From: Candidatus Poribacteria bacterium
Lineage (GTDB): Bacteria > Abyssobacteria > SURF-5
Length of the DNA stretch: 13,656 nucleotides
Reading direction: 5' to 3'
Assembly: GCA_016215705.1 (NCBI GenBank)
Contig: JACRIR010000022.1
Span: forward strand, 1 to 13,656
Shown: one piece after another, positions 678 through 13,569 of the stretch
Layout of the letters: each line of letters begins with the position of its first letter
Numbering within the stretch: the first letter of the stretch is position 1
Translations under genes and position numbers: made by a program
The notes under the pieces: generated by a model
Database searches by the model: none
What the model was told of the DNA's origin: nothing
What the model saw: the letters and a program-made list of their open reading frames with translations, nothing else

Positions 678-1217
678 CTACTTCGACTTTACCACTAGCG
701 ACGCCGTTGTTTGCAGGCCGTCGGGAAGATGCGGGGCATTCAGGGTTGCGCCGGGTCTCAACGACAACTCCTTAAAAGCTCCGTAGTCGAGCGCGCGCAT
801 TGGGCAGGCGGCCACGCAGACCGGAGCTTCTTTGTTCGCGAGTCGGTCCGAACAGAAATTGCATTTCTCGGCCTTCGAGCCGTTGTCGCCCCGGAATTGA
901 ATCGCGCCGTACTGACAGGCGTCCTCGCAAGCGCGGCAGCCGCTGCATTTCTCCGGATCGATCAATACAATACCGTCGGATGGGCGTTTTGAGATAGCAT
1001 CCTCCGGGCACGCCTCGGCGCATGCTGGATTTGCGCAATGACAGCATGAAACCGACAAGTGACTCACTCTGACGTGGGGGAATTTGCCTTCTTCGTATGT
1101 GGACACCCGCCGCCAGTTCACAGTCTCGGCAGGCAGGTCGTGCCAGTCTTTGCAGGCGACAACGCATGTGTGACAGCCAGTGCATCGAGTCTGATCGAAA
1201 AAGAATGCGAGCTGCAT
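678..1217 (-). CDS. DmsB-like four-[4Fe-4S] ferredoxin subunit
   Basis: This 179-residue protein is the expected electron-transfer subunit of a DMSO-reductase-family molybdoenzyme. Sixteen cysteines form four clusters: C12/C15/C18/C22, C58/C61/C66/C70, C91/C94/C97/C101 and C119/C122/C134/C138. The third group, CSGCRACEDACQYGAI, is a classic ferredoxin motif. No signal peptide or membrane segment is seen, so it should be cytoplasmic unless carried by a partner. An AGGAGG lies three bases before the ATG, a short but workable spacing. It follows the dmsA-like gene on the same strand after 354 bases of repeats, an unusually large gap for tightly coupled subunits. The family (DmsB, PhsB, NrfC and relatives) is clear; the substrate is not. 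Confidence 0.93.
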   Translation of the reverse strand: MQLAFFFDQTRCTGCHTCVVACKDWHDLPAETVNWRRVSTYEEGKFPHVRVSHLSVSCCHCANPACAEACPEDAISKRPSDGIVLIDPEKCSGCRACEDACQYGAIQFRGDNGSKAEKCNFCSDRLANKEAPVCVAACPMRALDYGAFKELSLRPGATLNAPHLPDGLQTTASLVVKSK

Positions 1218-1235
1218 AATCCTCCTGAGAACGTC

Positions 1236-1270
1236 GGTTCACAGTTCAAGTTTTATGGTTCATGGTTGTA
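1236..1270 (+). repeat. RGTTYAY heptamer array, five units
   Basis: Five consecutive 7-base units start with GGTTCAC and AGTTCAA and end with GGTTCAT and GGTTGTA. The array is followed by a purine-rich tract. It lies about 20 bases upstream of the dmsB-like start codon, on the opposite strand orientation. Confidence 0.65.
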
Positions 1271-1310
1271 GGAAGAAAAGGGTTTCGGGTTCCTGACTAA
1301 ATCCCCCCTG

Positions 1311-1329
1311 CCCCCTTTGCGAAAGGGGG
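1311..1329. repeat. Palindrome CCCCCTTT-GCG-AAAGGGGG
   Basis: Eight perfect pairs close a three-base loop, preceded by AAATCCCCCCTG. From memory this form is widespread in intergenic DNA of unrelated bacteria; I could not check this. In a dmsA-dmsB transcript it would be the strongest hairpin between the genes, but no U-tract follows it on minus. Confidence 0.65.
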
Positions 1330-1356
1330 AGAACTCAAAGGCCTCCTTGAAATCCA

Positions 1357-1384
1357 GTAGGGGTGCATGACCGCACGTCCCTAC
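1357..1384. repeat. Hairpin GTAGGG...CCCTAC
   Basis: The outer stem GTAGGG/CCCTAC and the inner stem GTGC/GCAC are separated by a two-base bulge, with a six-base loop. It runs directly into the 29-base repeat at 1385. Confidence 0.55.
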
Positions 1385-1413
1385 GGAGATTCTTCGCTTC
1401 GCTCAGAATGACA
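1385..1413 (+). repeat. 29-base dispersed repeat, copy 1
   Basis: This stretch is identical over 29 bases to 13541-13569, at the other end of the window. The core is TTCGCTTCGCTCAGAATGAC. A diverged relative, including the GTCCCTAC that precedes this copy and the AATGACAAA that follows, lies at 9568-9600. Confidence 0.8.
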
Positions 1414-1515
1414 AACGGCTATTACCATTTGGGCAACACGCCGTGTAGGGTTGGCCACTCAGAATGACGTTGCGAATGATTCTTTTTCTCACTTCTTCCC
1501 TTTCCCTTTGTATCC

Positions 1516-1549
1516 TGAGGCTTCGGAAGTCCCGCGCTTCGCGGGATTT
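1516..1549 (-). repeat. 34-base repeat containing the CCGCG palindrome
   Basis: The reverse complement matches 4517-4550 at 32 of 34 positions. It contains TCCCGCG-CTT-CGCGGGA (1530-1546) beside CTTCGGAAG. It lies 23 bases past the dmsA-like stop codon. Confidence 0.75.
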
Positions 1550-1571
1550 CGCCTTTCGCCTCTTTTGCTGT

Positions 1572-3701
1572 CTAGGCCCTCGCAACCTGAACACGAGTTG
1601 AGTTATAGGGCGTTATGTCAATCGATGTATGAACGTCCGGGCAGACGGCGTTGGCGCAGCCCTTTGTTTCCACGCCGGTGGAATCGAACTCGAACTGCAT
1701 CCCTTGATCGATGTTGACTGTTCCCGGAACAATGCGTTCGGTCACGCGAGCGGGCAAGACGGTCGCGCCGATGCCGTTTGTGACTTTTACCATATCTCCA
1801 TTCTTTATGCCGCGCGGCCCGGCATCGGCCGAGTTGATCCAGATTTCCTGCGCCTCGGCTTCGCGGACCCACGGCAGATTGTAGAACATCGAGTTGCAGC
1901 TTTTCTTGCTGTGTGCGGTAATAAGCCGAAGCGGGAATCCGCCGTCGTCAGCTTCCTGGTTGGACGGAGGAACATACTTCGGAATCGGCGGGACATCGGG
2001 CTTTCCCATGTCGGCGATGGACTGCGAATAGATTTCCATTTTCCCGCTCGGCGTTCCAAACGGGTTGTTTTCGAAATCTTCGACCTGCTCTCTGAAAGCA
2101 ACGTGAGACCGCTCCAGTTTGTATTTGAGGAAACCACGCCGCTGGAATTCGTCCCAATCCGAAATATCGGCGCTGCCGGTCAGATATTTCAGCCATTCAT
2201 CCTCCGGAGTGTCATTATAGCTCTGGATGCCGAGGCGCTTCGCAATGTCGGCGCAGATGTCGATATCGTTTCTGCATTCGCCGTAGGGCTCGATCGCTTT
2301 TTCCGACCAGATTATGTAATGCCCGAAACACCACGGAGACATGACGTCGCTTCTCTCGAAGTGGGTGGTGGCGGGAAGAACAATGTCGGCATAGCGCGCG
2401 GTGGCGGTGAGAAAGTGGTCGTGCGCCACCATGAAATCGAGCATCTTAAGGGCGCGGTCCGCCTTGCGAACGTTGCCGAGTTGGTTCACGGTATTGCCCG
2501 CGACCGAATATACCATCTTGATATCTGAGGGGTATCCGCCCGTGCGTCCTTCGATTATCGCATCGGCCCACTTGTTGAAGTGGACGGATACGTTTTCCGG
2601 TGAGCCGCCGGCCGGAAAACTCATTACTTTGGTCTGGATCGGATAGCCGAAGATCGAGACGCCGGTGTCGCCGCCGGAAACGCCTACGTTACCGGTCATT
2701 GCGCACAGAGTCGCGGCGGCCCGATGGAACTGTTCGCCGTGATTCGTGCGACCCGGGCCGTGACCGACGGTTAGGGCAGCGGGTTTAGTCTTCGAATAGG
2801 CGTGAGCCAACTCCACTATGGTTTGGGCCGGCACTCCTGTTATCTGCTCAGCCCACTGCGGCGTTTTGGGCACGTCGTCTTCGCGGCCTGTCACGTATTC
2901 CTTAAACTTGTCGAATCCGAGGGTGTATTTATCAAGGAAATTCTTGTCGTAGAGCCCTTCTTCGATCATTACATATGCCATTGCGACGAGCATAGCGGTA
3001 TCGGTTCCGGGCCGAATGGGAATCCATTGGTCGGCAAACGTTGCGCCCGTGTCGGTATAGCGCGGGTCGACCGCCACAATGCGGGCGCCCTTCTCGCGGG
3101 CGAGAGCGAGATAGTAGCTCGAGTTCGTGCCCCACACCGAATCGGTCGGGTTCCATCCCCATATGATAATCATCTTTGAGTTGAGCAGGTCCTCGCGCTC
3201 GCTCGTGGTAAAGACAGTGCCGTATGTGTGCAATGCTGCAAACACACCGCCTTCATTCGAGACGATTGAATGGAGCATCGTCTGACCGCCGAACATATTG
3301 AGCAAGCGGTAGATGCAGCCTTTCCCGTGATAGGAACAAAGCATCGAGCCCGAATGCGAGATGTTCATGATTGCGGTCGGGCCATGCTTGTCGCGAATTT
3401 TCAGCATGTTTTCGGCGACCGCGTCAAGCGCCTCGTCCCAGCTTATCTGTTCGAATTTTCCCGAGCCCCTCTCCCCCACTCTCTTGAGCGGATGCTTCAA
3501 CCGGTCAGGATGATACAGCCGCTGACGATATGCGCGCCCTTTCAGGCATGCGCGTAGTTGGGCGACTCCGGGGTTGTCGGGCAGCGATTCATCGGTTGTT
3601 ATCCGCTTGACGACGCCGTCCTCGACATGTGCGATCAACAGACAACTGCCGCCGCAGTCATGCGGGCAGCCAACTGGAACTTTTTTCAAATTATCGGTCA
3701 C
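1572..3701 (-). CDS. DMSO-reductase-family molybdopterin oxidoreductase, DmsA-like
   Basis: This 709-residue protein is the catalytic subunit of a molybdopterin enzyme of the DMSO reductase superfamily. C12, C16, C20 and C52 form the N-terminal [4Fe-4S] site, followed by KGRAYRQRLYHPDRLKHPLKR. The DPRYTDTGATFADQWIPIRP stretch (212-231) is typical of DmsA and relatives. A C-terminal beta-domain (about 590-705) carries the dinucleotide-binding segment around LITAHSKKSCNSMFYN. By my remembered alignment to Rhodobacter DMSO reductase, Ser148 would be the molybdenum ligand. The start is GTG (3699-3701), with AAGGAG nine bases upstream. An in-frame TGA two codons before it rules out a longer N-terminus, so there is no Tat signal, unlike E. 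coli DmsA. The dmsB-like gene follows; no dmsC or chaperone gene is present. The substrate cannot be assigned. Confidence 0.93.
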   Translation of the reverse strand: MTDNLKKVPVGCPHDCGGSCLLIAHVEDGVVKRITTDESLPDNPGVAQLRACLKGRAYRQRLYHPDRLKHPLKRVGERGSGKFEQISWDEALDAVAENMLKIRDKHGPTAIMNISHSGSMLCSYHGKGCIYRLLNMFGGQTMLHSIVSNEGGVFAALHTYGTVFTTSEREDLLNSKMIIIWGWNPTDSVWGTNSSYYLALAREKGARIVAVDPRYTDTGATFADQWIPIRPGTDTAMLVAMAYVMIEEGLYDKNFLDKYTLGFDKFKEYVTGREDDVPKTPQWAEQITGVPAQTIVELAHAYSKTKPAALTVGHGPGRTNHGEQFHRAAATLCAMTGNVGVSGGDTGVSIFGYPIQTKVMSFPAGGSPENVSVHFNKWADAIIEGRTGGYPSDIKMVYSVAGNTVNQLGNVRKADRALKMLDFMVAHDHFLTATARYADIVLPATTHFERSDVMSPWCFGHYIIWSEKAIEPYGECRNDIDICADIAKRLGIQSYNDTPEDEWLKYLTGSADISDWDEFQRRGFLKYKLERSHVAFREQVEDFENNPFGTPSGKMEIYSQSIADMGKPDVPPIPKYVPPSNQEADDGGFPLRLITAHSKKSCNSMFYNLPWVREAEAQEIWINSADAGPRGIKNGDMVKVTNGIGATVLPARVTERIVPGTVNIDQGMQFEFDSTGVETKGCANAVCPDVHTSIDITPYNSTRVQVARA

Positions 3702-3737
3702 GCTTCATTTCTCCTTCACTAAGACGTCTTTTCTCAC

Positions 3738-3753
3738 CGCAAAGGCGCAAAGG
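3738..3753 (+). repeat. CGCAAAGG octamer pair, without the palindrome
   Basis: Two identical octamers CGCAAAGG are directly adjacent, preceded by TTCTCAC. This matches the flanks of 596-627 and 6457-6488 but lacks the 15-base centre, so it looks like the form without the inserted palindrome. Confidence 0.6.
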
Positions 3754-3786
3754 ACAAACTCACAACCCCAAAAAGAAAATTCGGAT

Positions 3787-3832
3787 CACGAATGTCACGA
3801 ATCGCGCAAGGCGCGAGACAAATTACACGAAT
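3787..3832 (+). repeat. CACGAATGT nonamer repeat with internal GC palindrome
   Basis: Two CACGAAT units 9 bases apart are followed by the palindrome CGCGC-AAG-GCGCG (3803-3815) and then further ACAAATTAC/ACGAAT units. Its layout resembles the region near 9441-9501, where a different GC palindrome lies between similar units. Confidence 0.6.
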
Positions 3833-3904
3833 AAAAATCCTCTTCCTTATTTGTCATTCCCGCGAAGCCTGTCCTCGACTCCGATCGGGGAGCGGGAATC
3901 CATG

Positions 3905-3940
3905 CCCAGTAGAGCCTTCTCTTTCCACCATTCTACTGGG
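3905..3940. repeat. Hairpin CCCAGTAGA/TCTACTGGG
   Basis: Nine perfect pairs enclose an 18-base loop and are followed on plus by TGGTTTTTGT. The shape would allow a terminator on plus, but no plus-strand gene ends just before it. A diverged ATTCCCGC...GCGGGAAT inverted repeat lies immediately upstream (about 3856-3900). Confidence 0.5.
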
Positions 3941-3974
3941 TGGTTTTTGTGGTGTCAACCGCGCCTAGGAAAAC

Positions 3975-4009
3975 GGTTCACGGTTTACGGTCTACAGTTC
4001 ACGGTTGAT
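3975..4009 (+). repeat. RGTTYAY heptamer array, five units
   Basis: Five 7-base units from GGTTCAC to GGTTGAT, keeping exact period. Units differ from each other mostly by transitions. A purine-rich tract follows. Confidence 0.7.
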
Positions 4010-4043
4010 AAGGATAAGAAAGTCAGGCGCTCCTAAGAAAGTC

Positions 4044-4078
4044 GGTTCGCAGTACATAGTTTATGGTTCATGGTTGAA
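4044..4078 (+). repeat. RGTTYAY heptamer array, five units
   Basis: Five 7-base units start with GGTTCGC and end GGTTCAT, GGTTGAA. It begins only 34 bases after the previous array and is followed by an A/G-rich tract. Confidence 0.7.
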
Positions 4079-4095
4079 AGAAACAAAAGAAGCGA

Positions 4096-4123
4096 GGTTG
4101 AAGGTCGAGAGTCCAAGGTCCGG
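4096..4123 (+). repeat. Heptamer array GGTYNAN, four units
   Basis: Units GGTTGAA, GGTCGAG, AGTCCAA and GGTCCGG keep a 7-base period. The related GGTCAAA, AGTCGAA, GGTCATA series at 11068-11088 looks like the same variant. It may be a subfamily of RGTTYAY. Confidence 0.5.
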
Positions 4124-4135
4124 GAAAAGAGGCAA

Positions 4136-4152
4136 TCCCGCGAAACGCGGGA
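4136..4152. repeat. Palindrome TCCCGCG-AAA-CGCGGGA
   Basis: Seven perfect GC-rich pairs close a three-base loop. Identical palindrome at 9454-9470; loop variants at 1530-1546 (CTT) and 4520-4536 (AGG). Confidence 0.75.
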
Positions 4153-4249
4153 CGAATTGTACGGATGCATCCATCCAGAATTGGGAAAGGAGAGGCGAAT
4201 CGCCTCGCATTTTTCGGTTTTCCTTTGTAACTCCTTGCCCGACAAGAAT

Positions 4250-4278
4250 ATGACACAAATGACGCAAGTATGACGCAA
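4250..4278 (+). repeat. ATGACRCAA nonamer units
   Basis: Three ATGACRCAA units; the first two are contiguous and the third follows after two bases. The same unit gives a clean triplet at 4406-4432. Confidence 0.55.
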
Positions 4279-4300
4279 AGCCCGGATGAAGCCGGGGCAG

Positions 4301-4328
4301 GCGAAAGGAGCAAGGAGCAAGGCGAAGA
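4301..4328 (+). repeat. Heptamer array, GGNGAAA family
   Basis: Four 7-base units: GCGAAAG, GAGCAAG, GAGCAAG, GCGAAGA. Same family as 181-208 in a shifted register. Confidence 0.6.
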
Positions 4329-4405
4329 GGCATTTGGAAGCTAAATATTGATAATGATTTCTGAAGACAAAATACGCATGGTTTGGAGCGGTTCCTGGAA
4401 GAAAT

Positions 4406-4432
4406 ATGACGCAAATGACACAAATGACACAA
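4406..4432 (+). repeat. ATGACRCAA nonamer array, three units
   Basis: Three contiguous 9-base units, ATGACGCAA once and ATGACACAA twice. Because 9 is a multiple of 3, its minus strand reads as repeated CVI residues, which explains the spurious open frames there. Confidence 0.7.
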
Positions 4433-4481
4433 GAAAACGTGTTTCGTTTCATAAATTATTGGACTGTGATGGTCCAGTATC

Positions 4482-4502
4482 GGATTGCGGATTGCGGATT
4501 GA
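4482..4502 (+). repeat. GGATTGC heptamer array, three units
   Basis: GGATTGC twice and GGATTGA once, followed by an A/G-rich tract. Relatives at 6515-6535 (inverted) and 13634-13647. Confidence 0.7.
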
Positions 4503-4516
4503 AAGAAAAAACAAGG

Positions 4517-4550
4517 GAATCCCGCGAGGCGCGGGACTTCGGAAGCCTCA
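4517..4550 (+). repeat. 34-base repeat containing the CCGCG palindrome
   Basis: This is the inverted partner of 1516-1549, identical at 32 of 34 positions. It contains TCCCGCG-AGG-CGCGGGA (4520-4536) and CTTCGGAAG. Two decamer units, CGCCGATAAA and CGCGAATGAA, follow at 4555-4574. Confidence 0.75.
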
Positions 4551-4792
4551 GCCACGCCGATAAACGCGAATGAAGAAACTGGAACATGAACAGAGCGGGT
4601 CATGACGGGTGATGCGAATTTAATCTTTTCCATTTGGCTCCTCTTGGTTGACGGAAGACTCGAAACTCGGGCTCTGAAACCCTGCGTAGCACGCGCGGCA
4701 TCCCGGGATCCATAATCTACAATATAGTTTACGGTTAGCTGGAAGGGCGGTCAAGGGCTTTTTTGTTAACGAATAGGGCGAAAGGCGGAAGA

Positions 4793-4827
4793 AGTTCACG
4801 GTTCACGGTTTATGGTTCGCAGTCAGC
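4793..4827 (+). repeat. RGTTYAY heptamer array, five units
   Basis: AGTTCAC, GGTTCAC, GGTTTAT and GGTTCGC are well formed; the fifth unit, AGTCAGC, is degenerate. Two further units resembling GGTTTAG follow at about 4834-4847. Confidence 0.65.
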
Positions 4828-4893
4828 AGCGACCGGTTTAGGGTTTATGACTGAGAATCACAGGTCCAGCACGGACATGGGAGGCTTACACCG

Positions 4894-4925
4894 GGTGAAA
4901 AGGGGAAACGGTTAAACGGGAGAAT
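4894..4925 (+). repeat. Octamer array, four units
   Basis: GGTGAAAA, GGGGAAAC, GGTTAAAC and GGGAGAAT keep an 8-base period. Composition resembles the GGNGAAA heptamers with one added base per unit. Confidence 0.45.
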
Positions 4926-5036
4926 AAAAGAAACAGCTATTAAGACGGAGGGCACGATTTCTGTTGTGAGTGCCGAAACGAGAATCAGATGTAGTATAGC
5001 ATATGCCTACATTTAGCCCGCGTTCATCGCTCACGT

Positions 5037-5057
5037 GGCGAAAGGCGCAACCAGCAA
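5037..5057 (+). repeat. Short GGNGAAA-type heptamer array
   Basis: GGCGAAA, GGCGCAA, CCAGCAA: three units, the last degenerate. Confidence 0.4.
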
Positions 5058-5160
5058 AAACGGAATGAAGGGACAGGACTCAGATGTTAACATGATTGGG
5101 AAAAACGATTCTGTAAATCTTATCCAAAAAGGGAAACGAAGGGAGAAGGCAGAAGCGGAG

Positions 5161-5205
5161 ATGGACAGAATGGACGGTATGGACGGCATGGACAAGATGG
5201 AACAG
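5161..5205 (+). repeat. ATGGACRRN nonamer array, five units
   Basis: Five contiguous 9-base units each begin ATGGA, for example ATGGACGGT and ATGGACGGC. A 64-residue open frame across it reads MDRMDGMDGMDKME, which is a translation of the repeat rather than a recognisable protein. Confidence 0.75.
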
Positions 5206-5454
5206 AAGAATCTTGTGAATGTTGTCTGAGATGAAAGACTCATCTATGAACAAGATTTCCTCGCAATTCCGATTCCTCGAGCCGGAGATCATCCGCCTCG
5301 AGTTTGCGGCCGCAGCAAGAGCACGCCATCAGGGGAGTTGTGGACTGTCGCTCTTTCGATGATTCCATTATGTTATTATGGACAAGAGGGAAGTCCCATA
5401 ATGCAACCCAAACAACAGGCGTCAATCAGAGAATCGGAAAGGAGCGCAAAGCCA

Positions 5455-6288
5455 ATGGAATTTGAAAAACTGATCTACAAAGAAACGGAGAAGACAGCTT
5501 GGATTACGCTGAATCGGCCGAAAGCTTTCAACGCGCTCAGCATGCAGTTGTCCGACGAGTTCCTGGCGGCCATCGAGTGTGTGCGGCAATCAATGAAGCT
5601 CAAGTTTCTCGTGATAAGCGGGGCCGGAGGCAACTTCAGCGTCGGTGACGATATTACGGAGATGCAGTCATGGGGAAACGCCAACGGCGTGATGCGCCGA
5701 GTGCGGTATTACCAAAACATGGCCAATCAGCTTGAGGAGTTGGACAAGATAACCATTGCGGCAGTTGACGGATACGCCGTCGGTGGTGGTCTGGAGATAA
5801 CGATGGCGTGCGATTTTGTCGTCGCCACGGAGCGCTCGAAATGGGGCATGCCGGAGGTCGACGTCGGAATTACGCCGGGTTGGGGTGGCACTACTCGCAT
5901 GGCTCGCCTGATAGGGAGGCGCCGCACAAAAGAGATCAATCTGTTGGGCGCGATCCATTCCGCCCGTCGCGCCGTGGAGTGGAATCTTTGGAATCGAGTG
6001 GCGCCGGACGACCAACTCCAAATGGAAGTGGATATGCTCCTCGCTGTGCTCGAGTCCAAGAACCAGCAGGGTCTGCGACAACTGAAATACATAATCAACC
6101 GAGGTGTCGAGTGTGACCTCTATACGGCCCAAGGCTTCGAGGCTTTGTCCGGGGCGCTCACTGCCGCCGTGAACGGCGCGTGGGAGGTCCCGGACGCGGA
6201 CAAGGGACAAGGTGTGAGAGCTTTCGTCGAGAAGAACGACCTCTGGCATAAGCGCCGAGGCTTGGCAACGAACTTCTGGACGGATTAG
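5455..6288 (+). CDS. Enoyl-CoA hydratase/isomerase (crotonase) family protein
   Basis: This 277-residue protein is a crotonase-fold enzyme, expected to hydrate an enoyl-CoA in fatty-acid or aromatic-acid degradation in the cytoplasm. NRPKAFNALS (20-29) is the family N-terminal motif. The oxyanion-hole segments are near GAGGNFSVGDD (56-66) and VDGYAVGGGLE (104-114). Both glutamates of true hydratases are present, E114 in GGGLE and E134 in WGMPE. PGWGGTTRMARLIG (141-154) matches the family PGxGGTQRL region. I chose the ATG at 5455 because AAGGAG lies ten bases upstream and family homology starts there. The frame is open to 5338, but that extra stretch looks unlike protein and lacks a ribosome site. 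A bulged hairpin (5376-5401) lies in the leader. The gene stands alone, so the substrate is unknown. Confidence 0.93.
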   Translation: MEFEKLIYKETEKTAWITLNRPKAFNALSMQLSDEFLAAIECVRQSMKLKFLVISGAGGNFSVGDDITEMQSWGNANGVMRRVRYYQNMANQLEELDKITIAAVDGYAVGGGLEITMACDFVVATERSKWGMPEVDVGITPGWGGTTRMARLIGRRRTKEINLLGAIHSARRAVEWNLWNRVAPDDQLQMEVDMLLAVLESKNQQGLRQLKYIINRGVECDLYTAQGFEALSGALTAAVNGAWEVPDADKGQGVRAFVEKNDLWHKRRGLATNFWTD

Positions 6289-6347
6289 TCAATAATCCGG
6301 AGTCGCGTGTCGCTTTTCCTCCAGTGTTGCGTCTGCGGACACGCGAG

Positions 6348-6368
6348 GCGAAAGGAGCAAGGCGAAAG
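6348..6368 (+). repeat. GGNGAAA-family heptamer array
   Basis: GCGAAAG, GAGCAAG, GCGAAAG: three exact 7-base units, the same words as in 4301-4328. Confidence 0.6.
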
Positions 6369-6456
6369 GGAAAATCTCACCACCAAGGAAGAGCACGGGG
6401 AAGAGCCATTCCTGCCAAGCAAATCCCCTGTTCGCCGTCGATTCTCTCTTTGCCGC

Positions 6457-6488
6457 CTTTGCGCCTCGGGTTTGCGACGCTTTGCGGT
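6457..6488 (-). repeat. CGCAAAGG repeat with altered centre
   Basis: This is homologous to 596-627: both carry CTTTGCGCCTCGGG then CTTTGCGGT. The central palindrome is decayed here (GGGTTTGCGACGC instead of GGGCCTGCGGCCC). Confidence 0.6.
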
Positions 6489-6514
6489 GAGAAAAGCCGT
6501 TTTGGACAGCAGTG

Positions 6515-6535
6515 ATCCAAAATCCGCAATCCAAA
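6515..6535 (-). repeat. Heptamer array, GGATTNN family, inverted
   Basis: On plus the units read ATCCAAA, ATCCGCA, ATCCAAA with period 7; on minus TTTGGAT and TGCGGAT. It lies seven bases upstream of the methyltransferase -35 box. Confidence 0.6.
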
Positions 6536-6541
6536 ATCGGA

Positions 6542-6570
6542 TTGTTCCCCATATGCCGGTGTGCTATAAT
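6542..6570 (+). promoter_or_regulatory. Extended -10 promoter of the methyltransferase gene
   Basis: A perfect -10 TATAAT (6565-6570) is preceded by TGC, giving an extended -10 element. The -35 TTGTTC (6542-6547) is partial and lies at 17 bases. The predicted start near 6577 gives a leader of about 20 bases with GAGGAA before the ATG. Confidence 0.75.
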
Positions 6571-6595
6571 TGGAGGAAATCAGTCCGAGGAACGA

Positions 6596-7366
6596 ATGCG
6601 CATGTCGAAGCTTAGAAGGACAACCTTAATCTTATTTGTTTTGGGGATGCCGGCCTTTTCAATCCGACTATTGCCGGGACAGGAGAGCGTATCTAGTGTC
6701 GTTCAGGCAGCGGAAGAAAAGATAAGGGGCGAATCTTCTGCCGTTCTTCGCGGCCGTCTCGTGGACCTGCTTGCCTCGGAAGGGATTACCGACAAGAAAG
6801 TGCTGGCGGCCATGAGGAAGACGCTCCGGCACGAGTTCGTGCCGGAACGCTATCGGAGCCAGGCCTACGATGATCACCCTCTCCCCATCGGAATGGATCA
6901 GACTATATCCCAACCGTACGTGGTCGCCTACATGACGCAGATGCTAAAACTGAAAGGCGGCGAGAAGGTTCTTGAAATCGGCACCGGTTCGGGTTATCAA
7001 GCGGCGGTGCTTGCGGAAATCGCGGGAAAAGTCTACACGATAGAAATACTTGAGCCGCTGGCGCGGAACGCCGATGAAACGTTGAAGCGACTCGGCTACA
7101 AGAACGTTTTCGTCAAGACAGGCGACGGTTACAAGGGCTGGCCGGAATTCGCTCCCTTCGATGCCATTATCGTGACTGCCGCTCCCGATCATGTTCCGCA
7201 GCCTCTTGTGGAACAACTCAAGGTGGGTGGCCGAATGATTGTTCCGGTCGGCGAGTGGTTCCAGAGATTGATTCTTCTAACAAAAGATGAAAAAGGCGTT
7301 ACGCAGCAAGAGGACTTGCCGGTGTCTTTTGTGCCCATGACCGGAGAAGCGCAACAGAAAAAGTAA
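6596..7366 (+). CDS. pcm: Protein-L-isoaspartate O-methyltransferase with signal-like N-terminus
   Basis: This 256-residue protein transfers a methyl group from S-adenosylmethionine to L-isoaspartyl residues, starting repair of aged proteins. HEFVP (79-83) and PLPIG..QTISQPYVVA (95-111) are Pcm signature segments. VLEIGTGSGYQAAVLA (125-140) is SAM motif I. PQPLVEQLKVGGRMIVPVG (201-219) is the conserved C-terminal motif. Pcm is usually about 210-220 residues; here about 45 extra precede the core. These include a basic stretch (RMSKLRR) and a hydrophobic run (TTLILFVLGMPAFSI), resembling a signal peptide or anchor. ATG at 6596 follows GAGG by five bases; ATG at 6602 is an alternative. A periplasmic site would be odd because SAM is cytoplasmic. 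Family certain, location uncertain. Confidence 0.94.
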   Translation: MRMSKLRRTTLILFVLGMPAFSIRLLPGQESVSSVVQAAEEKIRGESSAVLRGRLVDLLASEGITDKKVLAAMRKTLRHEFVPERYRSQAYDDHPLPIGMDQTISQPYVVAYMTQMLKLKGGEKVLEIGTGSGYQAAVLAEIAGKVYTIEILEPLARNADETLKRLGYKNVFVKTGDGYKGWPEFAPFDAIIVTAAPDHVPQPLVEQLKVGGRMIVPVGEWFQRLILLTKDEKGVTQQEDLPVSFVPMTGEAQQKK

Positions 7367-7390
7367 GACAATAAGAAGAAGAAGCGGATC

Positions 7391-7417
7391 ACGAATGAGA
7401 CGAATGACACGGATAAA
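7391..7417 (+). repeat. ACGAATGAC nonamer array, three units
   Basis: ACGAATGAG, ACGAATGAC, ACGGATAAA at period 9, following a purine-rich linker that starts at the pcm stop codon. Confidence 0.6.
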
Positions 7418-7427
7418 CGAACTGACT

Positions 7428-7469
7428 TTCGACCGTAAACCATGAACTATAGACCACGAACCATGAACT
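7428..7469 (-). repeat. RGTTYAY heptamer array, six units, inverted
   Basis: On minus the six units begin AGTTCAT, GGTTCGT and end GGTTTAC, GGTCGAA, followed by AG. The end resembles the GGTTGAA-AG end of the plus-strand copy at 4044-4078. It ends 12 bases before the start codon of the J-like gene, so it replaces any strong ribosome site there. Confidence 0.7.
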
Positions 7470-7481
7470 GGATGTACGGAA

Positions 7482-8102
7482 ATGCCGAACGATTGGGAAC
7501 AATTTGACTTCTACAGAGTCCTCGATGTGCCATCCAACGCCGGGGATGAAGAGATCAAGAACGCGCATGCGAATCTGACGTCCACGTTGAATCCCGACGC
7601 CAAGCCGGACGAACAGAAGAGAGCAGCCGCTGTTGCTTTTGTAATTGCGGATGCAGCGTTTGCCGCGTTATCCGATAAGAGCATTCGCGGCGTGTTCGAC
7701 GCAAAGGTCTCCGAGATTCAGAAGGCGGAATCGGAGAGAGACAAAATCGAGACCCAGCGCAAAGGCAAACTGCAAGAGCAGCAATCCGTTGAGGAAGACG
7801 AGAAACTCAAGCGAGCCATGCTCAGATATGACTCTGCAAAAAAGGACCTTGCCGACTTTTATTATGAGCACGTCTTCAAGGCCGCGCGCAACAGTCATTT
7901 TGAGACTACCTCCGCCGATAAACTTCTGGAATGGTTAAGCTCGGAGCGGGCGGAATCGTTGAGGAAGGCTGAGCAGAAGGGACGAAAGATATCGTTCCGT
8001 ATCGAATGGGAAGGTTTCGGCGCGGTTCAAAGCATGAGAAAGAAGCGGTCGGAGGAGATTGTAAAGATAGTGGACGTACTGGCTGAAAGGCTTCAGCTAT
8101 AA
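7482..8102 (+). CDS. J-domain-like protein with NPD in place of HPD
   Basis: This 206-residue protein starts with a region resembling a DnaJ J-domain. FDFYRVLDVPSNAGDEEIKNAH (8-29) matches helix I and II, and AFAALSDKSIRGVFD (59-73) matches the LSD..R..YD helix III/IV end. The invariant HPD tripeptide that activates Hsp70 ATPase is NPD (37-39), so normal DnaK stimulation is doubtful. Residues 76-125 are rich in E, K and Q and probably coiled coil. The C-terminal 80 residues (DFYYEHVFKAARNSHFETT onward) are not recognised. There is no signal peptide or membrane segment. The ribosome site is weak. It follows pcm by 115 bases on the same strand and may be co-transcribed. J-like homology is fairly clear; function is not. 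Confidence 0.8.
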   Translation: MPNDWEQFDFYRVLDVPSNAGDEEIKNAHANLTSTLNPDAKPDEQKRAAAVAFVIADAAFAALSDKSIRGVFDAKVSEIQKAESERDKIETQRKGKLQEQQSVEEDEKLKRAMLRYDSAKKDLADFYYEHVFKAARNSHFETTSADKLLEWLSSERAESLRKAEQKGRKISFRIEWEGFGAVQSMRKKRSEEIVKIVDVLAERLQL

Positions 8103-8151
8103 TATATACACAACGTCATAACCGCAACCAACAAAACGAAAAGCATTCACC

Positions 8152-8175
8152 ACCAAGGCACCAAGTCACCAAGGA
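8152..8175 (+). repeat. ACCAAGGC octamer array, three units
   Basis: ACCAAGGC, ACCAAGTC, ACCAAGGA, contiguous at period 8, followed by an A/G-rich linker. Confidence 0.7.
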
Positions 8176-8193
8176 AAAGAAGAAACAGGAACC

Positions 8194-8220
8194 ACGGATT
8201 TCACTGATTACACGGATTTT
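8194..8220 (+). repeat. ACGGATTTC nonamer array, three units
   Basis: ACGGATTTC, ACTGATTAC, ACGGATTTT, contiguous at period 9, followed by about 35 bases of A/G-rich linker. Confidence 0.7.
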
Positions 8221-8267
8221 TGGGAAAGAAGAAAACAAAAAAAGAAACAACAAAAGGCATTCTTAAC

Positions 8268-8297
8268 CGCAGATGCACGCCGATGAACGCGGATTCA
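8268..8297 (+). repeat. CGCNGATGAA decamer array, three units
   Basis: CGCAGATGCA, CGCCGATGAA, CGCGGATTCA, contiguous at period 10, followed by another A/G-rich linker. A two-unit relative is at 4555-4574. It is the third array in a 286-base gap whose arrays step from 8 to 9 to 10 bases per unit. Confidence 0.7.
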
Positions 8298-8388
8298 GGA
8301 AAAGAAAAAGAAGAAGAAAAGGAAATCACGACAAGAACTCACGATTTCGTTGCGTGCTCCCGCAAGAACTTAAGTCTACATACATGAT

Positions 8389-9363
8389 ATGAAAAAGAAT
8401 ATCTCATCTCAGGTTTCTGAAGTGAAAGGCATGGTGGAGTTGAAGAAACTTGTAATCGCAAACGCAATTGCGACGGGCAACACGTACGCTTTTCATGACT
8501 TGTTCTCGTGCCTCAAGGAGTCATCGGGCGCGAGCGAGAATGAAACCTTGCGCCTGCTTACCGAGAAGCTGGCCTATATGGCGCCGGATGAAACGACCCT
8601 GGAATCCCCAAAGTTCAAGGCAGCGCTCGAGCTCACAGAAAAGCATGGCACGAAAGACAACTCGCTGCCGGCGCTCCTTCTTGAAGAAACGGCAAAAGAA
8701 GCCGTCGCGAGAGGCAAATTCGCTTATGCTGAAGACGCATATAAGCTGCTCGGCATAAAGAACGAAATGGTCGCTCTTTATGCGCAGGCGGGCGAACAAT
8801 TTCTGCGCGAGGACAAGCCAAAGCAAGCTGCAACGGCATTCTTTGTCGCGGCGAGTATCGACCAATCCGTCGGGCCACACTATCAATATCTTGGCCCTGA
8901 GCTTCATTCACGATGCGCGATTGAGCCGAAGAAATGCGTGACAGAGATGCCCATTGAAGCGATCACGGAACAAGGCATCCGTTTTCTTCTTGCCCATGAT
9001 ACACTTGCCCAGCAACTTATGATGCGTGCGGCGCCCGGGCAAAGGCCCCGGATACTCGCCACGCTTGCCGCATGCAGGGATATCGACATTTCCGAGACTA
9101 TTAAGAATCTTCATGAATCCGTTTCGGCCCTCCTGAAGATCGAGAATGGAAAGCCCGACGATTATTCGGCCATCGGGCCGATATTGCTCGGCAGACCGAC
9201 AAGTTCGGGACAAAGCTGGCAGTACCTGAAAGAATTGTGTTTTGAGCACCCGATCGCGAGCCTGTGTGTTTGTATGAGACCTGTTCGGAACACGTTTGTC
9301 CTCGTTCCAGCCATCCGAGAGGGCAAATCGTTGATCGATCTACTACTGCCTCCTGAGTGCTAG
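8389..9363 (+). CDS. Helical protein with TPR-like repeats, function unknown
   Basis: I do not recognise this 324-residue protein. It appears almost wholly alpha-helical. Residues 102-158 read as paired helices of the tetratricopeptide kind: EAVARGKFAYAEDAYKLLG then ALYAQAGEQFLREDK and PKQAATAFFVAASID. Residues 45-90 and 185-260 also look helical. The C-terminus (282-324) contains several cysteines (C288, C297, C299, C324) and a hydrophobic stretch but no clear motif. There is no signal peptide. ATG at 8389 starts the frame without a good ribosome site; ATG at 8431 is possible but its purine run is too close. It lies 286 bases after the J-like gene on the same strand. A scaffold or adaptor role is only a guess from the fold type. 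Confidence 0.8.
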   Translation: MKKNISSQVSEVKGMVELKKLVIANAIATGNTYAFHDLFSCLKESSGASENETLRLLTEKLAYMAPDETTLESPKFKAALELTEKHGTKDNSLPALLLEETAKEAVARGKFAYAEDAYKLLGIKNEMVALYAQAGEQFLREDKPKQAATAFFVAASIDQSVGPHYQYLGPELHSRCAIEPKKCVTEMPIEAITEQGIRFLLAHDTLAQQLMMRAAPGQRPRILATLAACRDIDISETIKNLHESVSALLKIENGKPDDYSAIGPILLGRPTSSGQSWQYLKELCFEHPIASLCVCMRPVRNTFVLVPAIREGKSLIDLLLPPEC

Positions 9364-9369
9364 GAAGCC

Positions 9370-9404
9370 AGTTCGTGGTTCCCAGTTCCTGGTTCCTGGT
9401 TTAA
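9370..9404 (+). repeat. RGTTYNY heptamer array, five units
   Basis: AGTTCGT, GGTTCCC, AGTTCCT, GGTTCCT, GGTTTAA at exact period 7, starting six bases after the stop codon of the helical protein. Confidence 0.65.
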
Positions 9405-10998: not shown

Positions 10999-11002
10999 AA
11001 GA

Positions 11003-11030
11003 GGGGAAAGACGAAAGGAGCAAGGGGAAA
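11003..11030 (+). repeat. GGNGAAA-family heptamer array, four units
   Basis: GGGGAAA, GACGAAA, GGAGCAA, GGGGAAA at exact period 7, starting five bases after the MFS stop codon. Confidence 0.6.
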
Positions 11031-11035
11031 GGGGG

Positions 11036-13540: not shown

Positions 13541-13569
13541 GGAGATTCTTCGCTTCGCTCAGAATGACA
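13541..13569 (+). repeat. 29-base dispersed repeat, copy 2
   Basis: Identical over 29 bases to 1385-1413. It follows an A/G-rich tract after the tlyA stop codon. No other gene or RNA is recognised from 13490 to the end. Confidence 0.8.

Follow-up and report, generated by a model that had tools for sequence, protein, structure and literature searches.

Tandem repeats of a seven-base unit have been reported as over-represented in bacteria (PMC4692102). The described case nearest in placement to the arrays reported here is the TAACTGA repeat (MacGregor 2015), found in Beggiatoaceae, cyanobacteria and Bacteroidetes with a patchy distribution across phyla; in the Maribeggiatoa genome it occurs in 2-6 copies, mostly intergenic and mostly without a ribosome binding site (PMC4679880). 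The GGGAATC and GGGGAYT repeats of Xanthomonas and Nostoc are G-rich and quadruplex-forming (Rehm 2015, PMC4692102), and the same paper cites heptanucleotide repeats (STRRs) of Calothrix. Geobacter metallireducens carries dispersed sets of 4-5 tandem heptamers, with units GGGACCG and MTYCTGA, described as putative regulatory elements (PMC2700814). The broad kind, heptanucleotide tandem repeats such as TAACTGA, GGGAATC and the cyanobacterial STRRs, is already known. The pneumococcal BOX element offers a composite design, an intergenic repeat with end modules around a variable tandem core of structured units of ~45 bp. No account of RGTTYAY arrays or of a TTTCYYAGGAG junction was found in the open-licence literature searched. 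Nonetheless, the statement in a preliminary description of this DNA that no named element has such a design was too strong, given the heptanucleotide-repeat literature (PMC4679880, PMC4692102).

The stretch analyzed (the window) is one whole contig of 13,656 bases from a 5.47-Mb genome in 270 contigs. All six RGTTYAY arrays that had been proposed are present with their 7-base period, and all lie outside predicted genes, as called with a home-made hexamer score. Five of the loci are as given, with the 4793 array running on to ~4848, but the inverted array spans 7421-7469 and has seven units rather than six. The preliminary description had missed the orientation of the arrays and their placement before Shine-Dalgarno sequences, which are visible on the complementary strand. 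There the unit reads RTRAACY, the reverse complement of RGTTYAY (consensus over 541 units), and we refer to this direction as sense. The features of the window are as follows.

678..1217, minus strand: gene for a 4Fe-4S ferredoxin-like subunit, with the 1236 array in its leader
1222..1232, minus strand: GTTCTCAGGAG, a tail motif that departs from TTTCYYAGGAG at one base and is probably the Shine-Dalgarno of gene 681-1217
1236..1270, minus strand (sense RTRAACY): heptamer array within the 5' leader of the 4Fe-4S gene 681-1217, tail at 3 nt, start codon 18 nt past the array
3975..4009, minus strand (sense): heptamer array with a degenerate tail TTTCCTAGGCG at 3962-3972, without an adjoining gene start
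4030..4040, minus strand: perfect tail motif TTTCTTAGGAG, 3 nt off the 4044 array, also a gap-pattern match at 4030-4047
4044..4078, minus strand: heptamer array with a TTCAACC edge unit at 4072-4078 and a perfect tail that leads into the 3975-4009 array, without a gene start after it
4793..~4848, minus strand: degenerate array of 8 units without a tail, containing GGTTTAG and GGTTTAT units
7421..7469, plus strand (sense RTRAACY): array of seven units without a tail, ending 12 nt ahead of the start codon of ORF 7482-8102
9370..9404, minus strand: degenerate array with a remnant tail only, 6 nt past the stop of ORF 8389-9363

The GGTTTAG units, earlier likened to a telomere repeat, are just one unit variant of many and are present in several arrays. 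A non-canonical run, AGCRACCGGTTTA (array strand), is common to the tail-less array at 4793-4848 and another elsewhere in the genome (L018:12134); this common run hints that copying may have taken in entire arrays together with their odd units.

The family is not confined to the window, as a genome-wide count shows. Across the whole 5.47-Mb genome, the three-unit RGTTYAY pattern (RGTTYAYRGTTYAYRGTTYAY) has 62 + 116 = 178 matches and the pattern read backwards has 0, while a profile scan of sampled DNA from the same genome returned 63 arrays against 2 in reversed sequence. These numbers exclude chance; the heptamer arrays are real, intergenic and far more frequent than expected. The sampled DNA comprised ~0.87 Mb as contig stretches and ~50 kb of short pieces, part of it chosen for arrays. 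An unbiased sample of 535 kb consisted of contigs picked regardless of arrays, except for the window and one shifted stretch, and held 24 arrays, with 2 (one array), 3 (four), 4 (eight), 5 (eight), 6 (one), 7 (one) and 16 (one) units. Stretches selected for strict runs contain arrays of up to 22 units. Five units is therefore a mode and not a fixed size, and the proposed rule of five to six units fails, with 16 of the 24 unbiased arrays at 4-5 units and an overall range of 2-22. Since the window accounts for 7 of these 24 calls (the 4793 array contributing two), it is unusually array-dense; extrapolation puts the genome-wide total at roughly 240. Most arrays are intergenic, keep an exact 7-base tandem period and occupy many loci in one genome, as bacterial heptanucleotide STRR-type repeats do.

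Read in the sense direction, many arrays end in a fixed junction. The motif TTTCYYAGGAG, with at most 3 mismatches, lies at the array end in 35 of 85 distinct arrays, at exactly 3 nt in 30 (16 of them with a perfect tail) and at 2 nt in 5; the other offsets from 0 to 8 nt each account for at most 2 of the 85. Genome-wide, the gapped pattern AACCN{0,10}TTTCYYAGGAG has 26 matches, which overlap in part and almost always have a spacing of 3, against 0 for the reversed control; two same-family genomes, G001 and G002, have 0 and 1, the latter without an array. Of the 35 tailed arrays, 19 open with TTCAACC or TTTAACC as first unit and 33 have 3-6 units (mean 4.8, variance 1.7); among tail-less arrays the number of units runs from 2 to 22 (variance 21.6). 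The tail is missing from more than half of the arrays sampled, and many arrays have no nearby gene start. A longer 5' block (...CGCGGGAATGACAT...GTGTTCAG...CTTTG...) precedes several tailed arrays, not all. With respect to a BOX-type design, the 3' tail and edge unit are present in ~40% of sampled arrays, and no constant 5' module was seen. Several perfect tails without a gene after them (e.g. 4030-4040) and copies of the same motif behind other repeat modules argue that the tail acts as a module and is not merely a native ribosome site. The spacer is variable, with 17 distinct triplets among the 30 arrays at the 3-nt offset; block copying alone would not predict such freedom. The earlier proposal that a whole element of about 35 bp had been copied was thus right only in part. 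The fixed tail junction, the TTYAACC edge unit and the narrow unit counts of tailed arrays speak for it, but the fixed length does not hold, and the structure is better described as a composite block with a variable heptamer core.

This arrangement differs from each of the systems described above. TAACTGA repeats resemble the arrays reported here in being direct repeats of a 7-base unit that lie mostly between genes and, for the most part, shortly ahead of start codons in one orientation. In the same register, however, their unit is AACTGAT as compared to AACYRTR, and no rotation of RTRAACY yields TAACTGA. The TAACTGA unit is also near-invariant whereas the present one is R/Y-variable, and most TAACTGA repeats lack the ribosome binding site to which our arrays are joined in the form of a Shine-Dalgarno-like tail. 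The Xanthomonas, Nostoc and Calothrix repeats are likewise intergenic heptanucleotide arrays of variable unit number, but the RGTTYAY consensus has at most 2 adjacent G, below the run of at least 3 G per unit that marks the Xanthomonas and Nostoc quadruplex heptamers. The Geobacter metallireducens elements share the dispersed copies of four or five tandem heptamers but have other units, and their GGGACCG family also occurs inside genes. A possible likeness to BOX lies in the composite design with a variable core; the structured BOX units of ~45 bp are different. REP and REPIN elements differ as well, in that our arrays lack a short hairpin with a GTRG/GGAG foot and their consensus contains no inverted repeat.

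The tailed arrays are positioned ahead of genes. An ORF of at least 80 codons begins 14-32 nt past the array in the sense direction for 25 of 35 tailed arrays, as compared to 2 of 35 in the antisense direction and a baseline of 13.6% of random intergenic points (p about 1e-14). Antisense placement is at chance level, and 11 of 50 tail-less arrays have an ORF start at that sense distance. This enrichment is partly built in, because the tail includes AGGAG and would pick up native Shine-Dalgarno sites; neither the constant 3-nt spacing nor the conservation of TTTCYY is built in this way. The downstream genes, named by sequence, are ordinary and unrelated (ABC ATPase, APS kinase, carboxylases, nitroreductase, slipin and others). 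Folding of an 8-unit model gave -1.8 kcal/mol for the sense strand and -13.0 kcal/mol for the antisense strand, leaving the sense array almost unfolded.

Neither G001 nor G002 contains the three-unit pattern, though one or two weaker array-like matches turn up in small stretches of each. Orthologues from the same family (84-91% protein identity) lack arrays and come with ribosome sites of their own; for two genes compared at a single locus each, with proteins 84-88% identical, the relatives likewise carry their own Shine-Dalgarno and no array. Two gaps of a conserved carboxylase operon measure 52 and 50 bp in G001; in the present genome they measure 393 and 359 bp and are filled with arrays and other repeats. 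From these comparisons the arrays would have multiplied in this lineage or been lost from both relatives, gain being the simpler reading. The longer gaps at that operon (L255 vs L172; G001:C123, G000:C103) also suggest a general intergenic expansion by repeats.

The claim that units vary mainly by transitions was borne out. Relative to the consensus ATGAACC, interior units show 453 transitions and 109 transversions (~4:1), a bias above that of five other dispersed repeats of the same genome (ratios of 0.55-1.8). When applied to other genomes, the same profile found arrays with ratios of ~1:1 or below, so the profile does not by itself force the bias; by the same token, transition-limited variation was rejected as a general trait of such arrays. 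Sense positions 5 and 6 (A and C) are near-invariant (97-98%) and positions 1, 3, 4 and 7 vary, mainly by transitions, with transition to transversion counts of 170:10 at position 3 and 90:6 at position 7. Units of one array resemble each other at position 1 (z = 12), as expected with local duplication of units. Positions 3 and 7 (z of 0.2 and 0.0) show no such likeness, which counts against slippage alone and suggests that these positions are free as long as the purine/pyrimidine class stays. Such limited variation suggests a constraint beyond that on a neutral leader. We also considered RNA-templated synthesis with wobble, where U/G template positions would vary by transitions, and set it aside by reasoning: position 4 varies too, and 50% wobble copying is implausible.

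Heptamers of this class extend well beyond the genome studied here. The three-unit pattern matches 22 of 290 genomes, mostly of different families: this genome and 21 of 287 outside its family, as compared to 5 of 287 for the reversed pattern. The matches listed include arrays of five units from Bacteroidota, Desulfobacterales, Acidobacteria, Chloroflexi, cyanobacteria and others, and eleven array-rich genomes chosen from these matches have 38 to 401 matches each. In many of these other genomes, mainly Bacteroidota (L027-L142), the array starts at or just past the stop codon of the upstream gene, in the RGTTYAY direction. Placement before a Shine-Dalgarno is therefore a trait of this genome and not of the heptamer. 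The Bacteroidota stop codon is often formed by a T and the AG of the first unit. At one Prevotella gap, two close species (L051, L124) have the array, and it is missing from all nine readable gaps of more distant relatives. Viral carriage was considered and set aside, with a five-unit array in only 8 viral contigs.

The sequence of the arrays, their junction and placement, their absence from the sites compared in relatives and the pattern of variation were observed directly. We favor the view that the arrays are a tolerated, partly domesticated 5'-leader repeat. More specifically, we give about an even chance to the proposal that a dispersed repeat of intergenic gaps, with the arrays as its variable core, multiplied in this lineage and was incorporated into gene leaders without a regulatory function of its own. 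Read along the gene-sense strand, the composite would consist of a TTYAACC edge unit, a few RTRAACY heptamers, 3 nt and TTTCYYAGGAG. Common junctions suggest that this block was copied as a unit into many gaps, and the variable counts and within-array likeness that it later gained and lost units by slippage or unequal recombination. The block would have been tolerated and, in many genes, taken in as a 5' untranslated leader directly ahead of the start codon, with its own AGGAG, as placed, probably serving as Shine-Dalgarno. The most likely effect would be a weakly structured A/C-rich leader that keeps the ribosome site open, presumably without regulation.

The main rival holds that the heptamers are regulatory sites, bound by an RNA- or DNA-binding protein or a pairing RNA, through which arrays link genes in one post-transcriptional regulon. 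We consider this possible but unlikely. The position and orientation of arrays ahead of starts agree with it, the invariant positions 5 and 6 with transition variation at 1, 3, 4 and 7 fit G-U-tolerant pairing or purine/pyrimidine recognition, and MacGregor's proposal for TAACTGA repeats (PMC4679880) is a precedent. The downstream genes, however, share no common theme, unit number varies widely, many arrays adjoin no gene, same-family orthologues manage without arrays, and no candidate binder was found. A bolder form, in which the R/Y-degenerate heptamer is the recognition array of one RNA-binding protein or RNA, governing a genome-wide translational regulon in multiples of seven bases with a code that arose or spread in many bacterial lineages, strikes us as quite improbable. 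The arrays could instead be independent simple sequence repeats, produced by in-place slippage at a favored 7-base period and purged from genes by selection. The general over-representation of heptamers in bacteria (PMC4692102), the homogeneous RGTTYAY arrays of other genomes (among the matches listed, with runs of up to 22 units in all) and the Prevotella array, seen in two close species and missing from the nine readable gaps of more distant ones, are all in line with this. Such an origin would nonetheless leave unexplained why TTTCYYAGGAG follows at a fixed 3 nt, why TTYAACC recurs as the edge unit and why tailed arrays vary so little in unit count, and we regard it with considerable doubt.

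Insertion of a mobile element into Shine-Dalgarno-like targets by a Y1-type transposase (IS200/IS605, RAYT) would account for the fixed AGGAG distance and variable triplet, and this genome has three Y1_Tnp matches. Yet the array-free relatives carry one and three such matches, the array lacks a REP-type hairpin, no target duplication was seen and TTTCYY is conserved beyond the needs of an AGGAG target, all of which make this very unlikely. The least probable reading by our estimate, one to which we give hardly any credence, is a stop-codon clamp, in which one TRA (TAA/TGA) per unit and the 7-base period place stops in three frames before the start codon. Stops do occur in all three frames in 58 of 85 arrays in sense as compared to 9 in antisense, and 73.6% of units contain one, where independent columns would give 70.3%. 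This excess is small, however, tailed (gene-adjoining) arrays show no clear excess, and the most conserved positions (5 and 6) fall outside the stop codon.

The fixed Shine-Dalgarno-like junction, the R/Y-limited variation and the array-free orthologous gaps of two family members make the questions of why the period is seven, and whether the arrays have a role in translation, testable on defined leaders. The occurrence of the RGTTYAY class in 21 of 287 genomes outside the family means that an answer would reach beyond one species.

The intergenic gaps here are mosaics of several short-period repeats. A second intergenic heptamer family, AGGCGAA / TTTCGCC, occurs in the window at 185-211, 1547-1561, 6346-6373 and 11002-11034, and elsewhere in the genome adjoins TTTCYYAGGAG-like sites before start codons (L010:3739, L167:19398, L175:3001). 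A palindrome, GGGGACACGATGCCGCATCGTGTCCCC, lies at 541-567 and in many other intergenic pieces of the genome, its arm giving the commonest intergenic 11-mer of the sampled DNA (27 of 385 pieces). Another repeat, GAGATTCTTCGCTTCGCTCAGAATGAC, is found at ~1386-1412 and 13542-13568, with parts in 19 of 385 intergenic pieces, and in reverse complement it is at times fused to the end of TTTCTTAGGAG. Tandem repeats of a 9-base unit (CACGAATGA, CACGGATTA, ATGACACAA and ATGGACAGA) stand beside the heptamers at 7390-7411, 8193-8218, 4406-4432 and 5161-5207 of the window.
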